64,000 nt of DNA from Cheilinus undulatus (Eukaryota; Chordata; Actinopteri; Labriformes; Labridae), in NCBI RefSeq assembly GCF_018320785.1, contig NC_054867.1:54043776-54107775 (forward strand). The letters run 5' to 3'. The notes beneath the pieces are model-generated. The model saw nothing but the letters and a program-made list of their open reading frames with translations, was not told the origin of the DNA and did no database searches. Shown here piece after piece: positions 9,694 to 63,355 of the stretch (the stretch's first letter is position 1; every line of letters begins with the position of its first letter). A program made the position numbers and the translations under genes.

Positions 9694-12600
9694 ATGTCAT
9701 CACCGTGCCTCAGCAGCGTTCTGACCAGTGCCAACCTCGCCATGTACCAGACGGGCGACGTCCTGCTGCAACAGACTGCCGTGCTGCCCAGTATAAACAC
9801 TCTGCAGACCAGTAGCATCCTGCAGACCAGTAACGGCATCCTGCAGACCAGTAACGGCGCCCTGCAGACCAGTAGCGGCGCCCTGCAGAACAATAACTCA
9901 GCGTACAGCTCCAGCCTGAGAGGTAAGACAAACCCACAGTGATGGATCGCAGCTGTCTTTATGGTCTTTACTGTAGGATGGTCCCAGTAGGATGGTCCCA
10001 GTAGGACAGGGATGTCAAACTCAATCCCAGAAGGGACTGGAATCTGAATTAAGGTCTGACTTTGGGGCCTTTGGGGTCAACCTCATTTTTTGCCAGTAAT
10101 AAATTATGGGGAAAAAAGTTAGCAATGATGATAAATGATTTTGAGATTTAAAAAGCCAAAATGTTAAGTTAAAAAACTCAAAATCTGAGATAAAGTCAAA
10201 ACATATTTGTTCAAAAAGTCAAAACACGAAATTAGATGTTAAAATAATGCTTTGAAAAGACAAATACATAAAAAAAGGCACAATCATGTTTTTAAGCCAA
10301 AAATATGGTTTAAATTGTAAAATGGAGCACCTAAAACGTCAAAATATGATATCAAGGCTGAAATAATAAATTAAAAAGGTCAAAATACTAGATAAACACG
10401 AAGATAACAAATGTAAAGTTTAAAATATGGGATAAAAAGTCAAAATCATAAATTGAAAAAGGTCAAAATATTTTTAAAAAGTCAAAATTATAAGTTGAAA
10501 AGATCGAAATATGAGACAAAAGTCAAAATAATAAATGGAAAATGATGAAAATATGAACTTAAAGTCCAAATATTAGACTGAAGTCATAACTGTAAAAGGC
10601 AAAATTGAAAATATGAAATGAAAACTCAAATGAACTTGTTTTCCCACATTTCTTTTGAGCTAGTTATTTTTACTCTTTTTTTATTTTATTTTTATTTTCA
10701 TGACTTAAGGATATTTTAAATCATCAAGTTTAAGTGTACATTTTTATACTAAAAAAATCTGCAGACCTCATATTTTAACGCCCGTTATAATACGAATATG
10801 ATGTGACCTTGTGGGCCGAGTGAAACTGTACCACGGGCTGGATTTGGACCCCGGGCCTTGAGTTTGCCACCCCTGTAGGATCGTCCTTGTAGGCTGTGGA
10901 ACCATTCTATTCCGTTTGAGGTCCAGTCCTTTATTAGACCTGGACTACCCTGGACATGAGGAACTCTTTGGCGTGGTCCATGTTTATTATTTGACAGTCT
11001 TCCATGTAACATAAATCTCTTCCCTCCATCTCTGTGATCCTAACTGACTCAGTGTTTGATTGGAATGTTTTTGATGCGTGCTGAGTTTCGTGTTGAGTTT
11101 CAGCTGAAGTCTAATCCCTCAGTAAACACGAGTCATTGTTTCTAACGTCAGCGGCACCATCAGCTTTGACCTCATTCAGTCTCCGCGGGTTGAATCATTG
11201 ACAAGGTGGTTAAACGTTAACTCGATTTAACGGTCAGACAGAAGAATGCAGCCACCTCGGAGACCAGGAACCTCAGAGACCAGACCAGATCTAGTTGAAC
11301 TCTTAATGTAGTAGAAATATTGCCTGTTTTAACTCTTTGTTTCGTACAGTTTCATATAAATTCCAGCTGTTCTCTCCCTGATGGTCTAAAATCCCTCCCT
11401 CTGTTGTCTGTGTGCAGGTCAGTGGTACGGACATGTCAGTCCTCACTGCTGGTCCACAGAGAACGTTCTGGAGTGGATCAGCGATCACGTGGAGTCTTCC
11501 AAGTTTGACGCCAGGACGCTGAGTCTAGCCTGCTGCACCATGGACGGTCCCACCCTCTGCCAGATGAGTCGGGACCAGATGATATCTGACTTTGGACCAC
11601 AGCTTGGACAACAGCTGCACCAGAGTCTGCAGGAACACAAGACCAAATATGGTATATGCCCAAATATGGTTTCTGTAAAGATTTTGATAGCCAGGTTAAG
11701 AATAAATGGGCAGAGCATCATCCAGACATTTCTATTATATTATTATTATTATTATTAAGTATCTTGCAAACATTTTAAACTAATTTCCGCTCCTTCTGCT
11801 CTCAGAGCTGCAGATGTTTTTGGGATCAGAACTGAACGAGACGTGTCAGCTGCTCGACCGCTTCCTGGACAACCTGGACAACTTCCCGTTGCTCAGCACC
11901 ATCAAAATCGGCCAAAGTAGGTTATCCACCAACTATCTTTACTCTACAGCACACATGACTTTGATTGGTTGAGACTAACTGATTATCTACCGACAGCAGC
12001 GGAAGGAGATGCTGGAAGGAGAGAGCCTGACTTTAAGGACGAGTACGATCTAAGCGGCCTGACTCTGGAGCCGATGACGCCGTGGGCGGACTCAGAATAT
12101 CAGTCTGACAGCGAGTTGAGCTCCTCGTCCAACAGTCAGTGTTTTTATCACTCACGTTTCTGATTTAAACCCCGCCTTCTGGTCATTACTCCTCCTTTAC
12201 TAACTCCTCTTTCTGTCCTGTTCAGGCTGCGTGTTTGGATTCTCCTCCCTCGGCTCCCCAGAGTCCGGCAGCGGTGAATCGGACCCCGAGTTCTCCCTCC
12301 CCAGTATTTCTAGTGAGTAAAGAAGATTAACTAGTTTGGAGCTTCTCTAGCTTTCTGCAGGATGGATATGTGACATATTTATCTGGTTTTGACAGAGGTT
12401 CACATCAAAACAGAGAAAGGAGAGTGTCGTCTGAAGCGACCCCGGGGCCGGCCTCCTAAAGCCAGCAGGGATCACAGCAGCAGCTTTTATGAGAATCCAA
12501 AGAAGAACAAACATGGTGAGGAGCTGTTTGGGTTCTGCATGGTTCTTTCTTTGAATCAGAGGTTGAAATGCCGACACTTTACTGAGCCGATTGTTTGTGT

Positions 12601-19174: not shown

Positions 19175-22100
19175 GGTCAATAAATAACAGCACCATTACA
19201 TCTGAACCCTCACCCATGAATAACAGTACTGTCACACCTGAACCCTAACCCATGAATAACAGTACTGTTACACCTGAACACTCACCCATTAATAACAGTA
19301 CTGTCACACCTGAACACTCACCCATGAAGAACAGTGCTGTTACACCTGAACCCTCACCCATGAATAACAGTACTGTCACACCTGAACACTCACCCATGAA
19401 GAACAGTGCTGTTACACCTGAACCCTCACCCATGAATAACAGTACTGTTACACCTGAACCCTCACCCACTAATAACAGTGCTGTTACACCTGAACCCTCA
19501 CCCACTAATAACAGTGCTGTTACACCTGAACACTCACCCATGAATAACAGTACTGTTACACCTGAACCCTCACCCATGAAGAACAGTGCTGTTACACCTG
19601 AACACTCACCCATGAATAACAGTACTGTTACACCTGAACCCTCACCCATGAAGAACAGTGCTGTTACACCTGAACCCTCACCCACTAATAACAGTACTGC
19701 TACACCTGAACCCTCACCCACTAATAACAGTACTGTTACACCTGAACCCTCACCCATGAAGAACAGTGCTGTTACACCTGAACCCTCACCCACTAATAAC
19801 AGTACTGTTACACCTGAACCCTCACCCATGAAGAACAGTGCTGTTACACCTGAACCCTCACCCACTAATAACAGTACTGTTACACCTGAACCCTCACCCA
19901 TGAATAACAGTGCTGTTACACCTGAACCCTCACCCATGAAGAACAGTACTGCTACACCTGAACCCTCACCCATGAATAACAGTGCTGTTACACCTGAACC
20001 CTCACCCATGAATAACAGTGCTGTTACACCTGAACCCTCACCCATGAATAACAGTGCTGTTACACCTGAACACTCACCCATGAATAACAGTGCTGTTACA
20101 CCTGAACCCTCACCCATGAATAACAGTACTGCTACACCTGAACCCTCACCCATGAATAACAGTGCTGTTACACCTGAACCCTCACCCATGAATAACAGTG
20201 CTGTTACACCTGAACCCTCACCCACTAATAACAGTAGTTACACCTGAACACTCACCCATGAATAACAGTGCTGTTACACCTGAACCCTCATCCACTAATA
20301 ACAGTAGTTACACCTGAACACTCACCCATGAATAACAGTACTGTTACACCTGAACCCTCACCCACTAATAACAGTAGTTACACCTGAACCCTCACCCACT
20401 AATAACAGTACTGTTACACCTGAACCCTCACCCACTAATAACAGTACTGTTACACCTGAACCCTCACCCATGAAGAACAGTGCTGTTACACCTGAACCCT
20501 CACCCATGAATAACAGTACTGCTACACCTGAACCCTCACCCACTAATAACAGTACTGTTACACCTGAACCCTCACCCATGAAGAACAGTGCTGTTACACC
20601 TGAACCCTCACCCACTAATAACAGTACTGTTACACCCTCACCCTCACCCATGAAGAACAGTGCTGTTACACCTGAACCCTCACCCATGAATAACAGTGCT
20701 GTTACACCTGAACCCTCACCCATGAAGAACAGTACTGCTACACCTGAACCCTCACCCATGAAGAACAGTGCTGTTACACCTGAACACTCACCCATGAATA
20801 ACAGTGCTGTTACACCTGAACCCTCACCCATGAAGAACAGTGCTGTTACACCTGAACCCTCACTCATGAATAACAGTGCTGTTACACCTGAACCCTCACC
20901 CATGAAGAACAGTGCTGTTACACCTGAACCCTCACCCATGAAGAACAGTGCTGTTACACCTGAACCCTCACCCATGAAGAACAGTGCTGTTACACCTGAA
21001 CCCTCACCCATGAATAACAGTACTGTTACACCTGAACCCTCACCCATGAAGAACAGTGCTGTTACACCTGAACCCTCACCCATGAATAACAGTGCTGTTA
21101 CACCTGAACCCTCACCCATGAAGAACAGTACTGCTACACCTGAACCCTCACCCATGAATAACAGTGCTGTTACACCTGAACCCTCACCCATGAATAACAG
21201 TGCTGTTACACCTGAACCCTCACCCATGAATAACAGTGCTGTTACACCTGAACACTCACCCATGAATAACAGTGCTGTTACACCTGAACCCTCACCCATG
21301 AATAACAGTACTGCTACACCTGAACCCTCACCCATGAATAACAGTGCTGTTACACCTGAACCCTCACCCATGAATAACAGTGCTGTTACACCCTCACCCT
21401 CACCCACTAATAACAGTAGTTACACCTGAACACTCACCCATGAATAACAGTGCTGTTACACCTGAACCCTCACCCACTAATAACAGTAGTTACACCTGAA
21501 CACTCACCCATGAATAACAGTACTGTTACACCTGAACCCTCACCCACTAATAACAGTAGTTACACCTGAACACTCACCCATGAATAACAGTGCTGTTACA
21601 CCTGAACCCTCACCCATGAAGAACAGTACTGCTACACCCTCACCCTCACCCATGAATAACAGTGCTGTTACACCTGAACCCTCACCCATGAATAACAGTG
21701 CTGTTACACCTGAACCCTCACCCATGAATAACAGTGCTGTTACACCTGAACCCTCACCCACTAATAACAGTAGTTACACCTGAACACTCACCCATGAATA
21801 ACAGTACTGTTACACCTGAACCCTCACCCATGAATAACAGTGCTGTTACACCTGAACCCTCACCCACTAATAACAGTAGTTACACCTGAACACTCACCCA
21901 TGAATAACAGTGCTGTTACACCTGAACCCTCATCCACTAATAACAGTAGTTACACCTGAACACTCACCCATGAATAACAGTACTGTTACACCTGAACCCT
22001 CACCCACTAATAACAGTAGTTACACCTGAACCCTCACCCACTAATAACAGTACTGTTACACCTGAACCCTCACCCACTAATAACAGTACTGTTACACCTG

Positions 22101-25100
22101 AACCCTCACCCATGAAGAACAGTGCTGTTACACCTGAACCCTCACCCATGAATAACAGTACTGCTACACCTGAACCCTCACCCACTAATAACAGTACTGT
22201 TACACCTGAACCCTCACCCATGAAGAACAGTGCTGTTACACCTGAACCCTCACCCACTAATAACAGTACTGTTACACCCTCACCCTCACCCATGAAGAAC
22301 AGTGCTGTTACACCTGAACCCTCACCCATGAATAACAGTGCTGTTACACCTGAACCCTCACCCATGAAGAACAGTACTGCTACACCTGAACCCTCACCCA
22401 TGAAGAACAGTGCTGTTACACCTGAACACTCACCCATGAATAACAGTGCTGTTACACCTGAACCCTCACCCATGAAGAACAGTGCTGTTACACCTGAACC
22501 CTCACCCATGAATAACAGTGCTGTTACACCTGAACCCTCACCCATGAAGAACAGTGCTGTTACACCTGAACCCTCACCCATGAATAACAGTGCTGTTACA
22601 CCTGAACCCTCACCCATGAAGAACAGTGCTGTTACACCTGAACCCTCACCCATGAAGAACAGTGCTGTTACACCTGAACACTCACCCATGAATAACAGTA
22701 CTGTTACACCTGAACCCTCACCCATGAAGAACAGTGCTGTTACACCTGAACCCTCACCCATGAATAACAGTGCTGTTACACCTGAACCCTCACCCATGAA
22801 GAACAGTACTGCTACACCTGAACCCTCACCCATGAATAACAGTGCTGTTACACCTGAACCCTCACCCATGAATAACAGTGCTGTTACACCTGAACCCTCA
22901 CCCATGAATAACAGTGCTGTTACACCTGAACCCTCACCCATGAATAACAGTGCTGTTACACCTGAACCCTCACCCATGAATAACAGTACTGCTACACCTG
23001 AACCCTCACCCATGAATAACAGTGCTGTTACACCTGAACCCTCACCCATGAATAACAGTGCTGTTACACCTGAACCCTCACCCACTAATAACAGTAGTTA
23101 CACCTGAACACTCACCCATGAATAACAGTGCTGTTACACCTGAACCCTCACCCACTAATAACAGTAGTTACACCTGAACACTCACCCATGAATAACAGTA
23201 CTGTTACACCTGAACCCTCACCCACTAATAACAGTAGTTACACCTGAACCCTCACCCACTAATAACAGTGCTGTTACACCTGAACACTCACCCATGAATA
23301 ACAGTACTGTTACACCTGAACCCTCACCCACTAATAACAGTACTGTTACACCCTCACCCTCACCCATGAAGAACAGTGCTGTTACACCTGAACCCTCACC
23401 CATGAATAACAGTACTGCTACACCTGAACCCTCACCCACTAATAACAGTACTGTTACACCTGAACCCTCACCCATGATGAACAGTGCTGTTACACCTGAA
23501 CCCTCACCCACTAATAACAGTACTGTTACACCTGAACCCTCACCCATGAAGAACAGTGCTGTTACACCTGAACCCTCACCCATGAATAACAGTGCTGTTA
23601 CACCTGAACCCTCACCCATGAAGAACAGTACTGCTACACCTGAACCCTCACCCATGAATAACAGTGCTGTTACACCTGAACACTCACCCATGAATAACAG
23701 TGCTGTTACACCTGAACCCTCACCCATGAATAACAGTGCTGTTACACCCTCACCCTCACCCACTAATAACAGTAGTTACACCTGAACACTCACCCATGAA
23801 TAACAGTGCTGTTACACCTGAATCCTCACCCACTAATAACAGTAGTTACACCTGAACACTCACCCATGAATAACAGTACTGTTACACCTGAACCCTCACC
23901 CACTAATAACAGTAGTTACACCTGAACACTCACCCATGAATAACAGTACTGTTACACCTGAACCCTCACCCACTAATAACAGTAGTTGCACCTGAACACT
24001 CACCCATGAATAACAGTACTGTTACACCTGAACCCTCACCCACTAATAACAGTAGTTACACCTGAACACTCACCCATGAATAACAGTGCTGTTACACCTG
24101 AACCCTCACCCACTAATAACAGTAGTTACACCTGAACACTCACCCATGAATAACAGTGCTGTTACACCTGAACCCTCACCCATGAATAACAGTGCTGTTA
24201 CACCTGAACCCTCACCCACTAATAACAGTAGTTACACCTGAACACTCACCCATGAATAACAGTGCTGTTACACCTGAACCCTCACCCGTTAATAACAGCT
24301 CTGTAACACCTGTTACACCTTTACTGATGATTTTTCCACCAATGGTTCTAATTTTTCTTAAGGTCTATATGATCATCATTGATGAATAACAGTGCTGTTA
24401 CACCTGAACCCTCACCCATGAATAACAGTGCTGTTACACCTGAACCCTCACCCACTAATAACAGTAGTTACACCTGAACACTCACCCATGAATAACAGTG
24501 CTGTTACACCTGAACCCTCACCCATGAATAACAGTACTGCTACACCTGAACCCTCACCCATGAATAACAGTGCTGTTACACCTGAACCCTCACCCATGAA
24601 TAACAGTGCTGTTACACCTGAACCCTCACCCACTAATAACAGTAGTTACACCTGAACACTCACCCATGAATAACAGTACTGTTACACCTGAACCCTCACC
24701 CATGAATAACAGTGCTGTTACACCTGAACCCTCACCCATGAATAACAGTGCTGTTACACCTGAACCCTCACCCACTAATAACAGTAGTTACACCTGAACA
24801 CTCACCCACTAATAACAGTAGTTACACCTGAACACTCACCCATGAATAACAGTGCTGTTACACCTGAACCCTCACCCACTAATAACAGTAGTTACACCTG
24901 AACACTCACCCATGAATAACAGTACTGTTACACCTGAACCCTCACCCACTAATAACAGTAGTTACACCTGAACACTCACCCATGAATAACAGTGCTGTTA
25001 CACCTGAACCCTCACCCATGAAGAACAGTACTGCTACACCTGAACCCTCACCCATGAATAACAGTGCTGTTACACCTGAACCCTCACCCATGAATAACAG

Positions 25101-28100
25101 TGCTGTTACACCTGAACCCTCACCCATGAATAACAGTGCTGTTACACCTGAACACTCACCCATGAATAACAGTGCTGTTACACCTGAACCCTCACCCATG
25201 AATAACAGTACTGCTACACCTGAACCCTCACCCATGAATAACAGTGCTGTTACACCTGAACCCTCACCCATGAATAACAGTAGTTACACCTGAACACTCA
25301 CCCATGAATAACAGTGCTGTTACACCTGAACCCTCATCCACTAATAACAGTAGTTACACCTGAACACTCACCCATGAATAACAGTACTGTTACACCTGAA
25401 CCCTCACCCACTAATAACAGTAGTTACACCTGAACCCTCACCCACTAATAACAGTACTGTTACACCTGAACCCTCACCCACTAATAACAGTACTGTTACA
25501 CCTGAACCCTCACCCATGAAGAACAGTGCTGTTACACCTGAACCCTCACCCATGAATAACAGTACTGCTACACCTGAACCCTCACCCACTAATAACAGTA
25601 CTGTTACACCTGAACCCTCACCCATGAAGAACAGTGCTGTTACACCTGAACCCTCACCCACTAATAACAGTACTGTTACACCCTCACCCTCACCCATGAA
25701 GAACAGTGCTGTTACACCTGAACCCTCACCCATGAATAACAGTGCTGTTACACCTGAACCCTCACCCATGAAGAACAGTACTGCTACACCTGAACCCTCA
25801 CCCATGAAGAACAGTGCTGTTACACCTGAACACTCACCCATGAATAACAGTGCTGTTACACCTGAACCCTCACCCATGAAGAACAGTGCTGTTACACCTG
25901 AACCCTCACCCACTAATAACAGTACTGTTACACCCTCACCCTCACCCATGAAGAACAGTGCTGTTACACCTGAACCCTCACCCATGAATAACAGTACTGC
26001 TACACCTGAACCCTCACCCATGAAGAACAGTGCTGTTACACCTGAACACTCACCCATGAATAACAGTGCTGTTACACCTGAACCCTCACCCATGAAGAAC
26101 AGTGCTGTTACACCTGAACCCTCACCCATGAATAACAGTGCTGTTACACCTGAACCCTCACCCATGAAGAACAGTGCTGTTACACCTGAACCCTCACCCA
26201 TGAATAACAGTGCTGTTACACCTGAACCCTCACCCATGAAGAACAGTGCTGTTACACCTGAACCCTCACCCATGAAGAACAGTGCTGTTACACCTGAACA
26301 CTCACCCATGAATAACAGTACTGTTACACCTGAACCCTCACCCATGAAGAACAGTGCTGTTACACCTGAACCCTCACCCATGAATAACAGTGCTGTTACA
26401 CCTGAACCCTCACCCATGAAGAACAGTACTGCTACACCTGAACCCTCACCCATGAATAACAGTGCTGTTACACCTGAACCCTCACCCATGAATAACAGTG
26501 CTGTTACACCTGAACCCTCACCCATGAATAACAGTGCTGTTACACCTGAACACTCACCCATGAATAACAGTGCTGTTACACCTGAACCCTCACCCATGAA
26601 TAACAGTACTGCTACACCTGAACCCTCACCCATGAATAACAGTGCTGTTACACCTGAACCCTCACCCATGAATAACAGTGCTGTTACACCTGAACCCTCA
26701 CCCACTAATAACAGTAGTTACACCTGAACACTCACCCATGAATAACAGTGCTGTTACACCTGAACCCTCACCCACTAATAACAGTAGTTACACCTGAACA
26801 CTCACCCATGAATAACAGTACTGTTACACCTGAACCCTCACCCACTAATAACAGTAGTTACACCTGAACCCTCACCCACTAATAACAGTGCTGTTACACC
26901 TGAACACTCACCCATGAATAACAGTACTGTTACACCTGAACCCTCACCCACTAATAACAGTACTGTTACACCCTCACCCTCACCCATGAAGAACAGTGCT
27001 GTTACACCTGAACCCTCACCCATGAATAACAGTACTGCTACACCTGAACCCTCACCCACTAATAACAGTACTGTTACACCTGAACCCTCACCCATGATGA
27101 ACAGTGCTGTTACACCTGAACCCTCACCCACTAATAACAGTACTGTTACACCTGAACCCTCACCCATGAAGAACAGTGCTGTTACACCTGAACCCTCACC
27201 CATGAATAACAGTGCTGTTACACCTGAACCTCACCCATGAAGAACAGTACTGCTACACCTGAACCCTCACCCATGAATAACAGTGCTGTTACACCTGAAC
27301 ACTCACCCATGAATAACAGTGCTGTTACACCTGAACCCTCACCCATGAATAACAGTGCTGTTACACCCTCACCCTCACCCACTAATAACAGTAGTTACAC
27401 CTGAACACTCACCCATGAATAACAGTGCTGTTACACCTGAACCCTCACCCACTAATAACAGTAGTTACACCTGAACACTCACCCATGAATAACAGTACTG
27501 TTACACCTGAACCCTCACCCACTAATAACAGTAGTTACACCTGAACACTCACCCATGAATAACAGTACTGTTACACCTGAACCCTCACCCACTAATAACA
27601 GTAGTTGCACCTGAACACTCACCCATGAATAACAGTACTGTTACACCTGAACCCTCACCCACTAATAACAGTAGTTACACCTGAACACTCACCCATGAAT
27701 AACAGTGCTGTTACACCTGAACCCTCACCCACTAATAACAGTAGTTACACCTGAACACTCACCCATGAATAACAGTGCTGTTACACCTGAACCCTCACCC
27801 ATGAATAACAGTGCTGTTACACCTGAACCCTCACCCACTAATAACAGTAGTTACACCTGAACACTCACCCATGAATAACAGTGCTGTTACACCTGAACCC
27901 TCACCCATGAATAACAGTACTGCTACACCTGAACCCTCACCCATGAATAACAGTGCTGTTACACCTGAACCCTCACCCATGAATAACAGTGCTGTTACAC
28001 CTGAACCCTCACCCACTAATAACAGTAGTTACACCTGAACACTCACCCATGAATAACAGTACTGTTACACCTGAACCCTCACCCACTAATAACAGTAGTT

Positions 28101-28640
28101 ACACCTGAACACTCACCCATGAATAACAGTGCTGTTACACCTGAACCCTCACCCACTAATAACAGTACTGTTACACCTGAACACTCACCCATGAATAACA
28201 GTACTGTTACACCTGAACCCTCACCCACTAATAACAGTAGTTACACCTGAACACTCACCCATGAATAACAGTACTGTTACACCTGAACCCTCACCCACTA
28301 ATAACAGTAGTTGCACCTGAACACTCACCCATGAATAACAGTACTGTTACACCTGAACCCTCACCCACTAATAACAGTAGTTACACCTGAACACTCACCC
28401 ATGAATAACAGTGCTGTTACACCTGAACCCTCACCCACTAATAACAGTAGTTACACCTGAACACTCACCCATGAATAACAGTGCTGTTACACCTGAACCC
28501 TCACCCATGAATAACAGTGCTGTTACACCTGAACCCTCACCCACTAATAACAGTAGTTACACCTGAACACTCACCCATGAATAACAGTGCTGTTACACCT
28601 GAACCCTCACCCGTTAATAACAGCTCTGTAACACCTGTTA
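19175..28640. repeat. 9.4-kb minisatellite array of a 36-bp unit (array 1)
   Basis: The unit is AATAACAGTGCTGTTACACC followed by TGAACCCTCACCCATG (36 bp), roughly 260 copies. Recurrent variants are GTGCTG/GTACTG, GTTACA/GCTACA, CATGAATAAC/CATGAAGAAC/CACTAATAAC, and CCCTCACCC/CACTCACCC. A 34-bp variant (AGTAGTTACACC) lacks two bases and shifts frame. Read on the + strand, the 36-bp unit gives a 12-residue NNSAVTPEPSPM period; the minus strand gives MGEGSGVTALLF. Because all copies are near-identical, long ORFs appear on both strands and end only where 34-bp variants occur. No promoter, splice context or non-repeat coding sequence adjoins it, so it is annotated as repeat DNA only. Confidence 0.95.
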
Positions 28641-35925: not shown

Positions 35926-36866
35926 AACATAAAACATCAGACCTCTGGTTTTAAACAGTCTCGATTTGATGACAGATAATTGTTTTAATAAAAATGTAAA
36001 ACCTTATTAAAATCCTTCTATATTTTAAAATCAAACCTCTTGTATTAAGCAGTCCTGCTTTGATGATAATAAAGATTATTGTTATGTGATCACATTTTAA
36101 GAAGTTTACGTTTTTTTAATGATTACTAAAAACCTTCTGTCATTGGTTAGGATGAATATGTACACTTTCATATTCTGCTATCAATCTAAGGATAATCCAC
36201 GCTGGTCTGTTACTGATGTCACAGAGATAAGGTTTTTAAATTTAAACAGCGAATCCCAACAAAAAATGATGAATCAAACTAGAAACATAAAGTTTTCATT
36301 TTTTTAAATTAATTTTCCAACAGTGAGCAGATCTGAGGGTGGAAAACAGACAGTAAAAAAGACTTATCATTTTATATCAACAGATTTAAACGTCAGCATA
36401 AATATAGACAGATAAATATATACTGAACAGGTCATTATTCATTCTATTATGGCATTTAAAATAATAATAACATGAATTATATTAACTTTCTTTATTTTAA
36501 TTCACTTTTTAAATGAGAAGAAACACAAACTGCTACCATCAACAAATGACTGGGTGAAAAAATGAAATAAAATGAAGTAAAATAGAATAAAATAAAATAA
36601 AAAACTAAAATTGATTAAAATGAAATAAAATTAAACAAAATGAAAATAAAAAACGTGAAGCTCTGTGTTGTGAGGACAAAACTGATTTACAGAATTCAGA
36701 AATAAAACCAGTGAAAATTTAAATAAAGTCCTTTAAGCGATCATCACTAAGCTCTTTTCTCTGGTTTTAATTTCAATAATACTCATTTGAATATCCTAAT
36801 AATTTTTTAATAAATAACTAAGAGTCCTCTTCGAAGACGCAATGTGACGACTGACGGTCCAATCCT

Positions 36867-37623: not shown

Positions 37624-40600
37624 TCACTGTAAAATGTCAGCCAGCCTCTCTTGATAATACTCGTAGTTTTCTTTACAGTCCTCCCACAGGTTCAGAGGTT
37701 GGTCTTCGTTCTCCACAAACGTGTCCCACATGTAGGAGAAGTCCAACGGTTTCATCACCCTCAGCTTACAGCCGGCAGCGTTCAGCATCTTCAGTCCGTC
37801 CTGTATTTCCAATTCCTCCCACTCAAACAGACGAGCAGAAAAGATGGTGAGTTTGATGTTTTTCTTCCCCTTCAAGAATTCAGCGATCTTTGCTGCACAG
37901 GCGGAGCAGGGACTGGATGACACATACCTGCAGGAACAGAAAGAAATGGTTGTGTTGGTCACCTGAATGGAAAAATACTCATGTAGAGCTAGAGATGTCA
38001 GTTCAACAGAGGATAAAGTAGACCTGTATTTACACCTACAGTAGTCCTACAGTAGACCTGTATTTACACCTACAGTAGTCCTACAGTAGACCTGTATTTA
38101 CACCTACAGTAGTGCTACAGTAGACCTGTATTTACACCTACAGTAGTCCTACAGTAGACCTATACTTACACCTACAGTAGACCTGTATTTACACCTACAG
38201 TAGTCCTACAGTAGACCTGTATTTACACCTACAGTAGTCCTACAGTAGACCTGTATTTACACCTACAGTAGTACTAGAGTAGATCTGTAGTTACACCAAA
38301 AGTAATACTACAGTAGACCTGTATTTACACCTACAGTAGTACTACAGTAGACCTGTATTTACACCTACAGTAGTCCTACAGTAGACCTGTATTTACACCT
38401 ACAGTAGTCCTAGAGTAGACCTGTATTTACACCTACAGTAGTCCTACAGTAGACCTGTATTTACACCTACAGTAGTCCTAGAGTAGACCTGTATTTACAC
38501 CTACAGTAGTCCTACAGTAGACCTGTATTTATGCCTACAGTAGAGCTATATGTGAACCTATAGTAGACCTGTATTTACACCTACAGTAGTCCTACAGTAA
38601 ACCAGTATTTACACCTAAAGTAATACTACAGTAGACCTGTATTTACACCTACAGTAGTACTCCAGTAGACCTGTATTTACACCTAAGGTAGTCCTTCAGT
38701 AGACCTGTATCTAAATCTACAGAAGAGCTATGTGTGGACCAACAATGGACCTATATTTACACCTACAGTAGAGCTACATGTGGACCTAAACTAGACCTGT
38801 ATTTACACCTACAGTAGACCTATATGTGGACCTAAAGTAGACCTGTATTTATACCTACAGTAGTCCTATGGTAGTCCTACAGTAGACCTGTATTTACACC
38901 TACAGTAGTGCTGCAGTAGAGACAACTGTGTTTAGACCTACAGTTGACCTAGAATTGACCTACAGTAAGACTGTATTTAGAACTACAATAGACCTACAGT
39001 AGGACTGTATTTAGACCTACAATTGACCTACAGTAAGACTGTATTTAGAACTAAAATAGACCTGCAGTAGGACTGTATTTAGACCTACAATAGACCTACA
39101 GTAGGACTGTATCTAGACGTACAATAGACCTACAGTAGGACTGTATCTAGACCTACAATAGACCTGCAGTAGGACTGTATTTAGACCTACAATAGACCTA
39201 CAGTAGGACTGTATCTAGACCTACAATAGACCTGCAGTAGGACTGTATCTAGACCTACAATAGACCTGCAGTAGGACTGTATTTAGACTTACAATAGACC
39301 TACAGTAAGACTGTATTTAGACACACAGTAGGCTTACATCTAGTGTAGAACAGCTCAGTACCATGTGATGGTGTATTTTAGGGCAGGGTCGTAGTCTGGC
39401 AGGCACTGGGTGAAGAAGGCCTCCTCCACATGGGCCCCGGTGTGTTCATCCTCCAGGTATCCTCTCAGCAGGCTATTGACTATGTTCCCTCGGTCCACCA
39501 GGTAACACAGGAAAGTCTTATTACGACCTGACGAGTACTCCACATTCTTATACTGGAACTTAAAAACAAATGGGTCGATCCGGTCTCTGTGGAGAAGACA
39601 GGATATTAGTTATCGTTATAATTTGGGCTATTATTATGAAAAAGTAATGGTAATAAAAAAGATAAATACACATGGAACCAGAGAACACAGCAAGAACATA
39701 CAAACACAAGGAACCAGAGAAAACACGAGGACATACAAACGCTAGGAACCAAAGAGAACAGGAGGAACAACAAACAAAAAGAAACCAGAGAACATAGGAG
39801 GAACATACAAACACAAGGAAACCAGACAACACAGGAGGAACATACAAACACAAGGAACCGGTGAACACAGGAGGAACATACAAACACAAGGAAACAGAGA
39901 ACACAGGAGGAACATACAAACACAAGGAACCAGAGAACACAGGAGGAACATACAAACACAAGGAACCAGAGAACACAGGAGGAACATACAAACACAAGGA
40001 ACCAGAGAACACAGGAGGAACATACAAACACAAGGAAACCAGAGAACACAGGAGGAACATACAAACACAAGGAACCGGAGAACACAGGAGGAACATACAA
40101 ACACAAGGAACCAGAGAACACAGGAGGAACATACAAACACAAGGAACCAGAGAACACAGGAGGAACATACAAACACAAGGAAACCAGAGAACACAGGAGG
40201 AACATACAAACACAAGGAACCGGAGAACACAGGAGGAACATACAAACACAAGGAAACAGAGAACACGGGAGGAACATACAAACACAAGGAAACCAGAGAA
40301 CACAGGAGGAACATACAAACACAAGGAACCAGAGAACACAGGAGGAACATACAAACACAAGGAACCAGAGAACACAGGAGGAACATACAAACACAAGGAA
40401 CCAGAGAACACGGGAGGAACATACAAACACAAGGAAACCAGAGAACACAGGAGGAACATACAAACACAAGGAACCAGAGAACACAGGAGGAACATACAAA
40501 CACAAGGAACCAGAGAACACAGGAGGAACATACAAACACAAGGAAACAGAGAACATGGGAGGAACATACAAACACAAGGAAACCAGAGAACACAGGAGGA

Positions 40601-43600
40601 ACATACAAACACAAGGAAACAGAGAACATGGGAGGAACATACAAACACAAGGAAACCAGAGAACACAGGAGGAACATACAAACACAAGGAACCAGAGAAC
40701 ACAGGAGGAACATACAAACACAAGGAACCAGAGAACACAGGAGGAACATACAAACACAAGGAAACAGAGAACATGGGAGGAACATACAAACACAAGGAAA
40801 CCAGAGAACACAGGAGGAACATACAAACACAAGGAACCAGAGAACACAGGAGGAACATACAAACACAAGGAACCAGAGAACACAGGAGGAACATACAAAC
40901 ACAAGGAACCAGAGAACACAGGAGGAACATACAAACACAAGGAAACAGAGAACATGGGAGATACATACAAACACAAGGAAACCAGAGAACACAGGAGGAA
41001 CATACAAACACAAGGAACCAGAGAACACAGGAGGAACATACAAACACAAGGAAACCAGAGAACACAGGAGGAACATACAAACACAAGGAACCGGAGAACA
41101 CAGGAGGAACATACAAACACAAGGAAACAGAGAACATGGGAGGAACATACAAACACAAGGAAACCAGAGAACACAGGAGGAACATACAAACACAAGGAAC
41201 CAGAGAACACAGGAGGAACATACAAACACAAGGAACCAGAGAACACAGGAGGAACATACAAACACAAGGAACCAGAGAACACAGCAGGAACATACAAACA
41301 CAAGGAACCAGAGAACACAGGAGGAACATACAAACACAAGGAACCAGAGAACACAGGAGGAACATACAAACACAAGGAACCAGAGAACACAGGAGGAACA
41401 TACAAACACAAGGAACCAGAGAACACAGCAGGAACATACAAACACAAGGAACCAGAGAACACAGGAGGAACATACAAACACAAGGAACCAGAGAACACAG
41501 CAGGAACATACAAACACAAGGAACCAGAGAACACAGCAGGAACATACAAACACAAGGAAACCAGAGAACACAGGAGGAACATACAAACACAAGGAACCAG
41601 AGAACACAGGAGGAACATACAAACACAAGGAACCAGAGAACACAGGAGGAACATACAAACACAAGGAACCAGAGAACACAGGAGGAACATACAAACACAA
41701 GGAACCGGAGAACACAGGAGGAACATACAAACACAAGGAACCAGAGATCACAGGATGAACATACAAACACAAGGAAACCAGAGAACACAGGAGGAACATA
41801 CAAACACAAGGAACCAGAGAACACAGGAGGAACATACAAACACAAGGAACCAGAGAACACAGCAGGAACATACAAACACAAGGAACCAGAGAACACAGCA
41901 GGAACATACAAACACAAGGAACCAGAGAACACAGCAGGAACATACAAACACAAGGAACCAGAGAACACAGCAGGAACATACAAACACAAGGAACCAGAGA
42001 ACACAGGAGGAACATACAAACACAAGGAACCAGAGAACACAGCAGGAACATACAAACACAAGGAAACCAGAGAACACAGGAGGAACATACAAACACAAGG
42101 AACCAGAGAACACAGGAGGAACATACAAACACAAGGAAACAGAGAACATGGGAGGAACATACAAACACAAGGAAACCAGAGAACACAGGAGGAACATACA
42201 AACACAAGGAACCAGAGAACACAGGAGGAACATACAAACACAAGGAACCAGAGAACACAGGAGGAACATACAAACACAAGGAAACCAGAGAACACAGGAG
42301 GAACATACAAACACAAGGAACCAGAGAACACAGGAGGAACATACAAACACAAGGAACCAGAGAACACAGCAGGAACATACAAACACAAGGAACCAGAGAA
42401 CACAGCAGGAACATACAAACACAAGGAACCAGAGAACACAGCAGGAACATACAAACACAAGGAACCAGAGAACACAGCAGGAACATACAAACACAAGGAA
42501 CCAGAGAACACAGGAGGAACATACAAACACAAGGAACCAGAGAACACAGCAGGAACATACAAACACAAGGAAACCAGAGAACACAGGAGGAACATACAAA
42601 CACAAGGAACCAGAGAACACAGGAGGAACATACAAACACAAGGAAACAGAGAACAACGGATGAACATACAAACACAAGGAAACCAGAGAACACAGGAGGA
42701 ACATACAAACACAAGGAACCAGAGAACACAGGAGGAACATACAAACACAAGGAACCAGAGAACACAGGAGGAACATACAAACACAAGGAACCAGAGAACA
42801 CAGGAGGAACATACAAACACAAGGAAACCAGAGAACACAGGAGGAACATACAAACACAAGGAACCGGAGAACACAGGAGGAACATACAAACACAAGGAAA
42901 CAGAGAACATGGGAGGAACATACAAACACAAGGAAACCAGAGAACACAGGAGGAACATACAAACACAAGGAACCAGAGAACACAGGAGGAACATACAAAC
43001 ACAAGGAAACAGAGAACATGGGAGGAACATACAAACACAAGGAAACCAGAGAACACAGGAGGAACATACAAACACAAGGAACCAGAGAACACAGGAGGAA
43101 CATACAAACACAAGGAACCAGAGAACACAGCAGGAACATACAAACACAAGGAACCAGAGAACACAGCAGGAACATACAAACACAAGGAACCAGAGAACAC
43201 AGCAGGAACATACAAACACAAGGAACCAGAGAACACAGGAGGAACATACAAACACAAGGAACCAGAGAACACAGGAGGAACATACAAACACAAGGAACCA
43301 GAGAACACAGGAGGAACATACAAACACAAGGAACCAGAGAACACAGCAGGAACATACAAACACAAGGAACCAGAGAACACAGCAGGAACATACAAACACA
43401 AGGAAACCAGAGAACACAGGAGGAACATACAAACACAAGGAACCAGAGAACACAGGAGGAACATACAAACACAAGGAACCAGAGAACACAGGAGGAACAT
43501 ACAAACACAAGGAACCGGAGAACACAGGAGGAACATACAAACACAAGGAAACAGAGAACATGGGAGGAACATACAAACACAAGGAAACCAGAGAACACAG

Positions 43601-45326
43601 GAGGAACATACAAACACAAGGAACCAGAGAACACAGGAGGAACATACAAACACAAGGAACCAGAGAACACAGCAGGAACATACAAACACAAGGAACCAGA
43701 GAACACAGCAGGAACATACAAACACAAGGAACCAGAGAACACAGCAGGAACATACAAACACAAGGAACCAGAGAACACAGCAGGAACATACAAACACAAG
43801 GAACCAGAGAACACAGGAGGAACATACAAACACAAGGAACCAGAGAACACAGCAGGAACATACAAACACAAGGAAACCAGAGAACACAGGAGGAACATAC
43901 AAACACAAGGAACCAGAGAACACAGGAGGAACATACAAACACAAGGAAACAGAGAACACGGGAGGAACATACAAACACAAGGAAACCAGAGAACACAGGA
44001 GGAACATACAAACACAAGGAACCAGAGAACACAGGAGGAACATACAAACACAAGGAACCAGAGAACACAGGAGGAACATACAAACACAAGGAAACCAGAG
44101 AACACAGGAGGAACATACAAACACAAGGAACCAGAGAACACAGGAGGAACATACAAACACAAGGAACCAGAGAACACAGCAGGAACATACAAACACAAGG
44201 AACCAGAGAACACAGCAGGAACATACAAACACAAGGAACCAGAGAACACAGCAGGAACATACAAACACAAGGAACCAGAGAACACAGCAGGAACATACAA
44301 ACACAAGGAACCAGAGAACACAGGAGGAACATACAAACACAAGGAACCAGAGAACACAGCAGGAACATACAAACACAAGGAAACCAGAGAACACAGGAGG
44401 AACATACAAACACAAGGAACCGGAGAACACAGGAGGAACATACAAACACAAGGAAACAGAGAACATGGGAGGAACATACAAACACAAGGAAACCAGAGAA
44501 CACAGGAGGAACATACAAACACAAGGAACCAGAGAACACAGGAGGAACATACAAACACAAGGAACCAGAGAACACAGGAGGAACATACAAACACAAGGAA
44601 CCAGAGAACACAGGAGGAACATACAAACCCAAGGAAACCAGAGAACACAGGAGGAACATACAAACACAAGGAACCGGAGAACACAGGAGGAACATACAAA
44701 CACAAGGAAACAGAGAACATGGGAGGAACATACAAACACAAGGAAACCAGAGAACACAGGAGGAACATACAAACACAAGGAACCAGAGGATACAGCAGGA
44801 ACATGCACACACAAGGAACAAGAGAACACGGGAGGAACATACAAACACAAGGAACCAGAGAACACATCAGAAACATACAAACACAAGGAACCAGAGTACA
44901 CAGGAGGAACATACAAACACAAGGAAACCAGAGAACATGGGAGGAACATACAAACACAAGGAACCAGAGTACACAGGAAGAACATACAAACACAAGGTAC
45001 AGAAGGACTATGACACAAACAAGATTTCGACCCCTAATTGTTGATTAATAATTGATCTTGACTCATCATATCGGCCTTTAAAGTATTGATCAAATATTGA
45101 TGTTAACTCACCCAGCAATGATTTCAAATGGAGGCAGTTCCATGGGTTCTACCTGAGGCTCTCCATTCTGTTCAGATTCTTTTGCAGCCTCGTCTCCTTT
45201 CTCCTTCTCTCCTCTCTCCTTTTCTCCTTTCTCCTTTTCTCCTTGATTCTTAGTCTCCTTAGTCACTTCGGCTGACTCCTTCTCTTTCCTCTCCTTCCTT
45301 CTTCCAGAATGACTTTTATCAGCCAT
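37624..45326 (-). CDS. apobec2: APOBEC2 cytidine-deaminase-family protein, 3 coding exons
   Basis: This belongs to the AID/APOBEC zinc-dependent deaminase fold; vertebrate APOBEC2 is expressed mainly in heart and skeletal muscle, and its enzymatic activity is disputed. Exons on the minus strand are 45326-45112 (215 bp), 39586-39362 (225 bp) and 37927-37624 (304 bp), joining in phase to 247 aa. The N-terminus is Lys/Glu-rich and low-complexity (about residues 8-50). The fold starts near LPPFEIIAG. The zinc site is visible: His and catalytic Glu in AHVEEAFF (exon 2), and the two Cys in SSSPCSACAAK (start of exon 3). The C-terminus is NYEYYQERLADILQ. Length, an acidic/charged N-terminal extension and the single deaminase domain fit APOBEC2 better than AID, which is shorter and lacks the extension. 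Fish often have two paralogs (2a/2b); which one this is cannot be decided. Both introns consist mostly of minisatellite DNA, and the exon 2 donor (GTACTG) is weak. Confidence 0.92.
37995..39345. repeat. 34-bp minisatellites filling apobec2 intron 2
   Basis: Two related 34-bp units lie end to end. From about 38028 to 38940 the unit is ACCTACAGTAGTCCTACAGT then AGACCTGTATTTAC. From about 38940 to 39340 it is ACCTACAATAGACCTACAGT then AGGACTGTATTTAG. The intron spans 37928-39361, so the arrays occupy over 90% of it. Confidence 0.95.
39660..45005. repeat. 5.3-kb minisatellite array of a 36-bp unit in apobec2 intron 1 (array 2)
   Basis: The + strand unit is AACACAGGAGGAACATACAA then ACACAAGGAACCAGAG (36 bp; 19 A, 8 C, 8 G, 1 T), about 148 copies. 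Variants: GCAGG for GGAGG; GAACATGGG; AACCGGAG; and a 37-bp form with GGAAACCAGAG. Order is not random: a block of one 37-mer, two GGAGG units, four GCAGG units, one GGAGG, one GCAGG and another 37-mer recurs near 41774, 42282, 43582 and 44088, a spacing of about 507 bp. Since no variant contains a stop in most frames, ORFs over 1700 codons appear on both strands; they are not genes. The array fills almost the entire intron (39587-45111). Confidence 0.96.
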
Positions 45327-49565: not shown

Positions 49566-50929
49566 GACAGGATTCTGCATCAAGTCACATTTTCACTCTA
49601 GGTTTCCTGCTGCTGCGAAAGTATAAACTAAGCTTAACGTTGCACTTTGTTTGTATTTTCTATTTAGATGCTCTTATGCTGCAGGGGGGAACCGGAACAG
49701 TCACCCAATTCGTGTTTGCCCAGCAGGTGCAGAAGTGGCTGCGGCATGCACCAGACAGGGCAGGGAGGATTGGACGCCAACACCTGGAAATGGGTCACTA
49801 AATGCGATTAAATTTTAATAAAAATGTGCTTATATGTACTTTAAAGTTGTCAGTTGTAGTCCTTTCTTGCTTACTCTAAAAGGTTTTCATCACTTTTTCA
49901 CATCCTGGCTGTAGATAAAGCAGGGTTTTTAGGGCCTGGATATTCAGCTTATTACAGTTGAAATGGAATTGAAACAATGTTGTTTCAATATTAAAAAATG
50001 GTGCAACATGATGTAGAATCTTGCTTGCTGTCTGTGTATTTTGACAGCTTTGGAATATCCATGTTAAATTTTTAAATAAGGGACCCCGCCCCCTTGGAAA
50101 CATCCGATTCATCGATTAATCAAGAAAATAATCATCCGAATTATTGATGATTGAAATCATCATTTGTTGAAACTCTAACTGGAAGCGTGACCTTTGGTCA
50201 GATGAAACTAAACTAGAGCTCTTTGACCACAGAGACGTTGGTGATGTTTGGAGAAAGGAGGGAGAGGCGTATCACCCAGAGAACAGCGTCCCCACAGTGA
50301 AACATGGTGGTGGGAGGATTATGCTGTGGGGATGCTTCAGTGAGTCTGGAACTGGAAACCTTGTCAAGGTGGAAGGATCCATGAAGAAAGAAGGAACCTG
50401 GGTTGTCGCTTTTTCTTCCAACACGACAACGACAAAAAACATTTGTCACTTCTGGTGAAGAACTACCTTCGGAATACCAAAGTGAGTATTATTGAGTGTC
50501 CTGCACAAAGCCCTGACTTAAATCCCACTGAAAACCTGTGGGGTGAACTGAAGACCAAGGTCCATGCCAGAAGACCATCAGATCTGGAGGAGCCAGAGAG
50601 ATTGGTCAAAGAAGAATGTGCTGGGATTCCTCAGGAGACTGTCAGACACTAAAACTAGAATAAACAACTGCAGGATGTTACCCAGCAACAACAGGACACT
50701 ACTGTTGACTGTTAGCACCGGGGGGGTAGTAATTTTGACCCTTGTGGTTTTTGTTTTTTTGTTGAATATTTTCATTTCTGTGTGCAACGTAAAATAATGT
50801 CAGCATCCAAAATAAAACTAGAATGTTTGAAAAGCTGTGTTGAAAATTTGTTGCTTTTTTTTAACAGCATACATTTAAATCAATGCAATTGTCATGGGGG
50901 GCTAATAATTTTGTCCTCATGTGTTTGTT

Positions 50930-62159: not shown

Positions 62160-62700
62160 CGGTTATACAGAAACACAGCCTTCAACTCAGGCTGAAGTCT
62201 AGTAGGGACAACCTGGAGAAGGATTATGAAGACTGAAAGTGTGTCCTTTAGTCAGGTGAAACTAAACTAGAGCTCTTTGACCACAGAGATGTTGGAGATG
62301 TTTGGAGAAAGAAGGGAGAGGCGTATCACCCAGAGAACAGCGTCCCCACAGTGAAACGTGGTGGTGGGAGGATTTTGCTGTGGGGATGCTTCAGTGAGTC
62401 TGGAACTGGAAACCTTGTCAAGATGTAAGGAACCATGAAGAAATAAGGAACCTGGGTTGTCGCTTTTTCTTCCAACATGACAACAACACAAAACATTTGT
62501 CACTTCTGGTGAAGAACTACCTTCGGAATACCAAAGTGAGCGTTACTGAACGGCCTGCACAAAGCCAACTGAAAACCTGTGGGGTGAACCGAAGACCAAA
62601 GTCCATGCCAGAAGACCATCAGATCTGGAGGAGCTGGAGAGATTGGTCAAAGAAGAATGTGCTGGGATTCCTCAGGAGACTGTCAGAGACTAAAACTACA
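62160..62700 (+). pseudogene. Tc1 transposon relic, second copy
   Basis: Closely related to the 47.5-50.9-kb copy (shared GAGCTCTTTGACCACAGAGA, CGTATCACCCAGAGAACAGC, GTGGTGGTGGGAGGATT). Residues TENLWGE and KTKVHARRPSDLEELERL near 62570-62640 mark the C-terminal catalytic end. Several frameshifts and a small deletion (DLNP region absent) inactivate it. The 3' end is cut by the LTR element. Confidence 0.85.
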
Positions 62701-62708
62701 AAAAACGT

Positions 62709-63355
62709 GATGAAACGCCTGGCTCTGCATGTTTCCTCTCTCCCTGCTCTCTCTGATCTCCCTCCTCCCCCTACCTGTGTGGCTTCAGCACACCTGTGTG
62801 CTGTTAGCACTCAGGGTGGAGGAGGGGGAGAGGAACATGGCAGAGCAGAGCTGAGCCAGGCACCGTGACACTCATGGACAAGCGAGTGAGGAGGTTTGAT
62901 TTGATTTCATTAACCTTCTCTTTTCGTTGAGTATTAGTTAATTCAGTTTATCCTAGTGTTTTGGTTATCCCGTTCTTTCTTTTCCCCCATACATGTTTAG
63001 ATTGTTGGGTTTTGTTATTTTAGTTTGGCTGTAGTCGTTGGTAGTCCTGTTTTCCTGTGTTTTCTTTTCTTGATTAAATAGTTTGTTCTTTTGGGTTAGG
63101 TAGTTTAAGTTAGGGGTGGTGGCTGGTCCAATGGCCCATTGCGTGGTTAGCCAGTCCACCACCCCTCTTTTGTTCTTTTTGGCTGCAGCCCTTTTGATTT
63201 CATTGATTTAGTTAATGTTTAGTTAATTAATTAATTGTTGCCCAATTAAATAAAGTTTGGATTGTTGTTTTGAAACTCAAATCTTTTGTCTGTGTCTCTT
63301 TTGGTGCGAGCCGTATTTTTTCCTGGTTAAAATTCATTTTTAAGAGGCTGTAACA
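62709..63355 (+). mobile_element. probable 5' LTR of a Gypsy-type retrotransposon
   Basis: A 647-bp segment beginning TGATGAAACGCC and ending GGCTGTAACA, immediately after Tc1 sequence. It contains ATTAAATAAAGTTTGG (polyadenylation signal near 63249) in its last 110 bp. Directly after the proposed end, TATATGAAGGCTCGCC resembles the leader/primer-binding region of fish Gypsy elements. The start is inferred; the 3' LTR lies outside the window. Confidence 0.5.

Follow-up and report, generated by a model that had tools for sequence, protein, structure and literature searches.

What a tandem array that fills most of an intron does to its gene, if anything, is the question raised by apobec2 in the fish Cheilinus undulatus. 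We analysed a window of 64,000 bp from RefSeq assembly GCF_018320785.1 (contig NC_054867.1, positions 54,043,776 to 54,107,775 of the forward strand), in which the first intron of this gene is built almost entirely from copies of a 36-bp unit with a very one-sided composition. A sequence-only reading of the same stretch had proposed that RNA copied from the array might sequester CELF-type or pyrimidine-binding proteins. We consider it probable (about 0.75) that the array is instead a locally grown intronic minisatellite, of the kind that behaves as a variable number of tandem repeats (VNTR), and that it is spliced out by means of signals lying outside it. The array is real but of an ordinary kind, an intronic minisatellite, unusual in its composition, that lies in repeat-rich surroundings, and it looks passive rather than being a proven regulator.

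Tandem Repeats Finder (TRF) delimited the array at 39668..44997 on the minus strand, as 147.2 copies with a period of 36 over 5,330 bp (matches 95%, indels 1%), and both a parse into units and a genome-wide pattern search identified it as well. It makes up 96.5% of the 5,525-bp intron, which agrees with the earlier statement that about 5.3 of 5.5 kb were one minisatellite. Its head-to-tail 36-bp units and kilobase scale fit the definition of a minisatellite or VNTR, the unit range used being 6–99 bp, as given in a paper on a fish genome that carries a high load of minisatellites (PMC2688266). When cut at ACATACAA, the array yielded 145 pieces and an 8-base end. The consensus unit accounted for 52 of these pieces, a variant with C replacing one G for 29, and a 37-bp form, longer by one A, for 28, followed by two variants with 10 and 8 copies, several rarer types, and two pieces of 72 bp. 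The period of 36 stands, whereas the notion of a single 36-bp unit has to be relaxed, since 28 exact copies are 37 bp long and several 36-bp variants exist. Units in the core are homogeneous (mean score distance of 0.83 per unit) and those at the edges are more diverged (up to 4), in a count covering all of the 145 parsed pieces but the two of 72 bp. An exact stretch of 462 bp is present twice, 1,810 bp apart. No regular higher-order repeat was detected, as no unit lag matched above 0.5 in the array, and repeated strings of unit types give a weak signal, the longest being 12 units where 300 shuffles reached at most 10. Equally weak is the hint that the unit might be an old dimer (ACACA..AGGAAC twice), since 13 of 500 shuffles were as good. 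An array of 147 copies in intron 1 is not a chance event. Could it nevertheless be a product of the assembly, a real array of wrong length or two merged haplotypes? Long arrays are error-prone in assemblies. However, the window contains no N, many distinct unit variants follow each other in irregular order between unique flanks on both sides, and the small number of contigs (46 for 1.17 Gb) suggests that long reads were used, so that we regard such an error as very improbable.

The gene around the array is intact. Three minus-strand segments (45326-45112, 39586-39362 and 37927-37624) join into a single open frame of 247 residues with a stop, and the encoded protein matches both the Pfam family APOBEC2 (PF18772; 5.1e-61, 206.2 bits for a cut-off of 26.8) and the APOBEC-2 structure PDB 2nyt (1.2e-67). 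In the joined frame, coding exon 1 (45112..45326, 215 nt) is rich in lysine and glutamate, exon 2 (39362..39586) carries HVEEAFF, and the coding part of exon 3 up to the stop (37624..37927) carries PCSAC; we take these two motifs to be parts of the APOBEC2 zinc site. Intron 1 (39587..45111) is a GT-AG intron whose ends read GTGAGT...CTCCACAG, as defined by its splice borders and by the uninterrupted joined frame. The Pfam match, the borders and the frame support the gene identity, the strand and the limits of intron 1 that had been proposed from the sequence. Only 195 bp of unique sequence are left in this intron. The 5′ end (44998..45111, 114 bp) includes the GTGAGT donor, and the 3′ end (39587..39667, 81 bp) includes a CTAAT branch-like site, assigned by eye, a pyrimidine tract and the CAG acceptor, all of them outside the array. 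Exon 1 itself bears a short coding tandem repeat of period 15 and KGEKE type (45193-45244), and the first exon of a paralogue on contig C11 is likewise lysine/glutamate-rich.

Where did the unit come from? A search of the whole genome (1.17 Gb) for the unit pattern with up to 3 substitutions, which counts substitutions only and not length variants, returned 110 forward matches and no reverse one; the number of matches in this array is also 110, which argues that the unit was born locally. On the same count (110 of 110 matches within this array) we discarded a dispersed satellite family. A looser similarity search gave at least 49 matches, a lower bound as very common words were skipped, of which 18 fell in this array and 31 on seven other contigs at 65–75% identity. 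Eight loci picked by similarity turned out to hold arrays with other unit lengths, their strands likewise A-rich or T-rich. Although the units at six similarity-picked loci outscored the bulk of their shuffles (1 to 17 of 300 were as good), we set these scores aside because the loci had been chosen by similarity. Shared composition seems the best account of the resemblance, except possibly for a 10-bp unit. Kilobase arrays of nearly identical 10-bp units, CCAGAGAACA and kin, lie on contigs C10 (~38-41 kb; L010:3147-6098) and C19 (~159-164 kb; L014:8-5207), and CCAGAGAACA occurs once within the 36-bp unit. These arrays near the starts of the two contigs might possibly represent an exchange family located near chromosome ends. 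Neither the exact 36-mer in viral contigs nor a 22-base stretch in prokaryote genome contigs gave any match, in collections that do not cover fish.

The paralogue provides a comparison within the same genome. This second apobec2-like gene on contig C11 was matched in two exons, at 57% and 60% identity, and its intron 1 occupies the same place and phase as that of the window gene but measures 818 bp; TRF found no array within the 9,500 bp fetched. The intron 1 array is not common to both apobec2 genes. A fifth match, with 42% identity, was found on contig C8. The second introns of the two paralogues are placed differently (39361/37927 in the window, L036:4790-8644 on C11), within the codon for W in ...TITW of the window gene and after ...EEAFFQQ in the C11 gene, some 13–15 codons apart, so that an intron was probably gained or lost.

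The region that hosts the array is rich in similar elements. Of the window, 32.7% consists of minisatellites at least 100 bp long, compared with 2,159 of 44,000 bases in samples taken at fixed coordinates, 5 Mb from contig starts, and 5,193 of 35,800 bases at 2 Mb. These samples came from 12 of the 46 contigs (11 of 12 stretches for the 5-Mb set, an all-N one having been dropped, and 12 of 12 for the 2-Mb set, with N removed). Two contig starts were richer still (~38% minisatellite at L017 and ~61% at L018), both chosen since similarity matches fell on those contigs. The array itself lies ~3 Mb from the end of contig C3 (57,165,722 bases). In these small samples, repeats seem to become denser toward contig ends. 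Intron 2 of the gene (37928..39361, minus strand; 1,434 bp, delimited by TRF and the joined frame) contains another minisatellite (38017-39338), with a 34-bp unit covering 92.2% of it. Both introns of the apobec2 coding sequence are almost wholly arrays, with unrelated units, a point absent from the sequence-only reading. A shared origin of the two was considered and discarded, as 138 of 300 shuffles scored as well.

The composition of the array is its most unusual property. The sense strand contains 3.2% A, 52.8% U, 21.8% C and 22.2% G, and the RNA of the whole intron 4.2% A and 52% U, so the earlier description of an almost A-free, U-rich intron RNA was accurate, as was that of a single T on the plus strand of the unit, at least for the consensus. 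The strand asymmetry that had been called extreme is confined to A/T (AT skew of 0.89); the GC skew is ~0. Arrays at least 100 bp long and taken without regard to similarity numbered 26 (14 in the window and 6 each in the 5-Mb and 2-Mb samples), and two of them had an |AT skew| of 0.7 or more, the intron 1 array and another at 0.77, although the window was itself chosen for the intron 1 array. Arrays chosen by similarity to it reached AT skews of up to 0.95. Since a single unit has been copied head to tail, the one-sided composition represents one draw and not 148. AG dinucleotides number 1 on the sense strand and 703 on the opposite one, and neither AATAAA nor ATTAAA occurs on either strand of the array. 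Very long open frames also run through the array on both strands because the unit, with its single T (single A on the other strand), forms no stop codon in this context, and a protein-coding role for them was discarded.

These observations suggest a simple history. The 36-bp unit would have arisen within a compact intron, of which 195 unique bp remain, in a distal part of the chromosome rich in repeats, and would then have multiplied head to tail through slippage or unequal exchange, leaving the homogenised core and the worn edges. A uniform core with worn edges is what such events, when repeated, are known to leave in minisatellites. Transcribed with the rest of the pre-mRNA of apobec2, the array would be spliced out in the ordinary way by means of the donor, branch site and acceptor outside it, and its A/T asymmetry would be that of the founder unit, preserved by head-to-tail copying. 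A sense RNA nearly free of AG acceptors may have made a long array easy to tolerate, and the copy number presumably varies among individuals. Several points weigh against this history. The depletion of AG is not independent evidence of tolerance, because the unit contains one A, and poly(A) signals do not separate the two orientations, because they are absent from both. UGU words exceed their frequency in shuffled units (P 0.006–0.01), a marginal excess that a purely passive array leaves unexplained. Minisatellites in fish introns may also be active. One in intron 1 of the seabream growth hormone (GH) gene reportedly represses gene activity (Almuly 2008, as described in PMC4848999), and the latter paper gives, at second hand, repression of reporters by the long, forward-oriented GH intron (reportedly from Almuly 2000 and 2008), so that passivity is not assured.

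A different possibility is that the array serves in cis as a platform of ~143 CELF-type sites, perhaps with weak U1-like GUAUGU words, which would slow or tune apobec2 splicing or transcription in muscle according to array length. In the RNA, a consensus unit contains UGU six times, UGUU three times and UGU-N-UGU-N-UGU once, and the sense strand of the array as a whole holds 874 UGU and 143 such triples, whereas the other strand holds none. The earlier figure of ~148 copies each for UGUGUUUGU and UUCCUCC was close for the former (143) and too high for the latter (110), as ~30 units read CCUGCUG at that place. The triples conform to the GU-rich element (GRE) pattern of CELF1, UGU-Nx-UGU-Ny-UGU, 143 times with x=1 and y=1, and resemble the CELF1 GRE UGUUUGUUUGU to within one spacer letter. 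However, the GREs cited as examples are mRNA elements, whereas the candidate sites of apobec2 would be intronic and repeated 143 times, and one-nucleotide spacers belong to a weak class, with a Kd of 2.2 µM, 20-fold weaker than the 0.11 µM of the best spacing (PMC3737555). The high-affinity spacing (x=2, y=4) was found 0 times in the array.

Compared with 20,000 shuffled versions of the unit, P was 0.0105 for UGU, 0.083 for UGUU, 0.030 for a loose triple and 0.0062 for the tight triple, with motifs picked post hoc among nine features tested; the enrichment in UGU is marginal. It is not special to this array, since UGU also exceeds the expectation from composition in intron 2 (85 versus 34, with no triple) and in intron 1 of the C11 paralogue (28 versus 17). 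The latter intron has 0 tight triples and 4 looser clusters and, with neither the array nor the tight triple in the paralogue, no conserved function is seen. CELF-type binding, as proposed by the sequence-only reading, draws modest support from the 143 triples and loses strength on their spacing and on the marginal P of 0.006. Other features would suit a platform. Three sense units (108 nt) fold at only -2.8 kcal/mol, which predicts an open RNA, and a structured RNA was discarded on this value and on the 0 Rfam matches at gathering score between window positions 36000 and 47500. The array contains 145 GUAUGU words, but these are weak look-alikes of a donor (matrix score of -1.2, compared with 4.4 for the real one). 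It also contains 30 CUGCUG, a possible word for MBNL. Precedents for effects of intron arrays include, besides the repressive fish GH first intron, a human intronic VNTR in ABCA7 whose length correlates with exon skipping and expression (PMC5954066). Taken with the absence of such a tight cluster from the introns of the paralogue, the weak class of the sites makes a length-dependent platform unlikely. The broader proposition, in which the array is a CELF platform on nascent apobec2 RNA, its growth to 5 kb depended on its orientation, intronic arrays of such extreme composition were mostly U-rich on the sense strand genome-wide, and some of them tuned muscle genes by copy number, appears quite unlikely.

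The array could also act in trans, as a stable intron RNA that would sequester CELF or pyrimidine-binding proteins in muscle nuclei. Each molecule would offer many sites, and the CCUG expansion of myotonic dystrophy 2 provides a precedent for a sponge, but excised introns are normally degraded. For pyrimidine-binding proteins of the PTB type, the proposal is not supported by the sequence. The whole array has 5 UCUU, and each unit one YUCUYY/YYUCUY, compared with 1.71 in shuffled units (P 0.69), without PTB enrichment, and a PTB sponge was discarded on these counts. A parallel is PNCTR, like the apobec2 array a repetitive RNA offering candidate words for protein binding by the hundred; it differs in being a pol I transcript of more than 10 kb rich in PTBP1 motifs, and not an intron. 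Some 36 copies of PNCTR per cell are estimated to bind ~7% of 286,000 PTBP1 molecules through 565 non-overlapping sites, or 27% if all 2,178 are counted, and the RNA was also precipitated with a CELF1 antibody (PMC6224606). With 143 sites per intron, matching it would take ~140 (for 7%) to 540 (for 27%) stable copies per cell, an estimate that assumes a protein of equal abundance and takes its scale from PTBP1 in HeLa cells and not from CELF in fish. Given also the weak class of the CELF sites, we find such a sponge extremely improbable. Regulatory readings in general are weakened by the low-affinity spacing, by the absence of the array from the paralogue and by this arithmetic, and a passive, locally grown minisatellite remains the reading that we favour.

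Comparable arrays are known elsewhere. The gilthead seabream GH gene has minisatellites in introns 1 and 3 and, as in apobec2, its first intron is filled (there in part) by minisatellite units, of polymorphic copy number, while the first intron of seabream myostatin-2 contains a repeated block of ~150 bp with no clear link to growth rate (PMC3045353). GH is nonetheless another gene, and both the polymorphism and the effect are described for GH. ABCA7 shares with apobec2 a long intronic tandem array, for which a VNTR of 10,000 bp is mentioned (PMC6857246), but the correlation of length with splicing and expression is that of ABCA7. A minisatellite of Caenorhabditis elegans is described as over-represented near multiple alternative splicing decisions (PMC4039745). 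Among the matches listed in our literature search, no title dealt with an array in an apobec2 intron, which is no proof of absence. If passive, the array would show clearly how tandem repeats can occupy both introns of a gene that seems intact, with its splice signals untouched, and would warn against treating motif counts within an array as independent evidence. If, on the contrary, its length altered the output of apobec2 in muscle, the output of a muscle gene would have a natural, heritable dial, and whether CELF-type sites work by number could be tested simply.

Other elements of the window deserve brief mention. A second 36-bp minisatellite (19196-28637) extends over 9.4 kb with 264 copies, and its GC skew exceeds its AT skew; a shared origin with the intron 1 array was discarded, 263 of 300 shuffles scoring as well. 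In a Pfam scan of pieces of the window, 2 of 10 matched a family. A transposase fragment that matches DDE_3 (1.8e-8) and another copy, similar in appearance but matching no Pfam family, lie at 50344-50649 and 62398-62865. Finally, an open frame at 11390-11755 encodes a SAM/Pointed domain (4.8e-13) and may represent an exon from an ETS-type gene.

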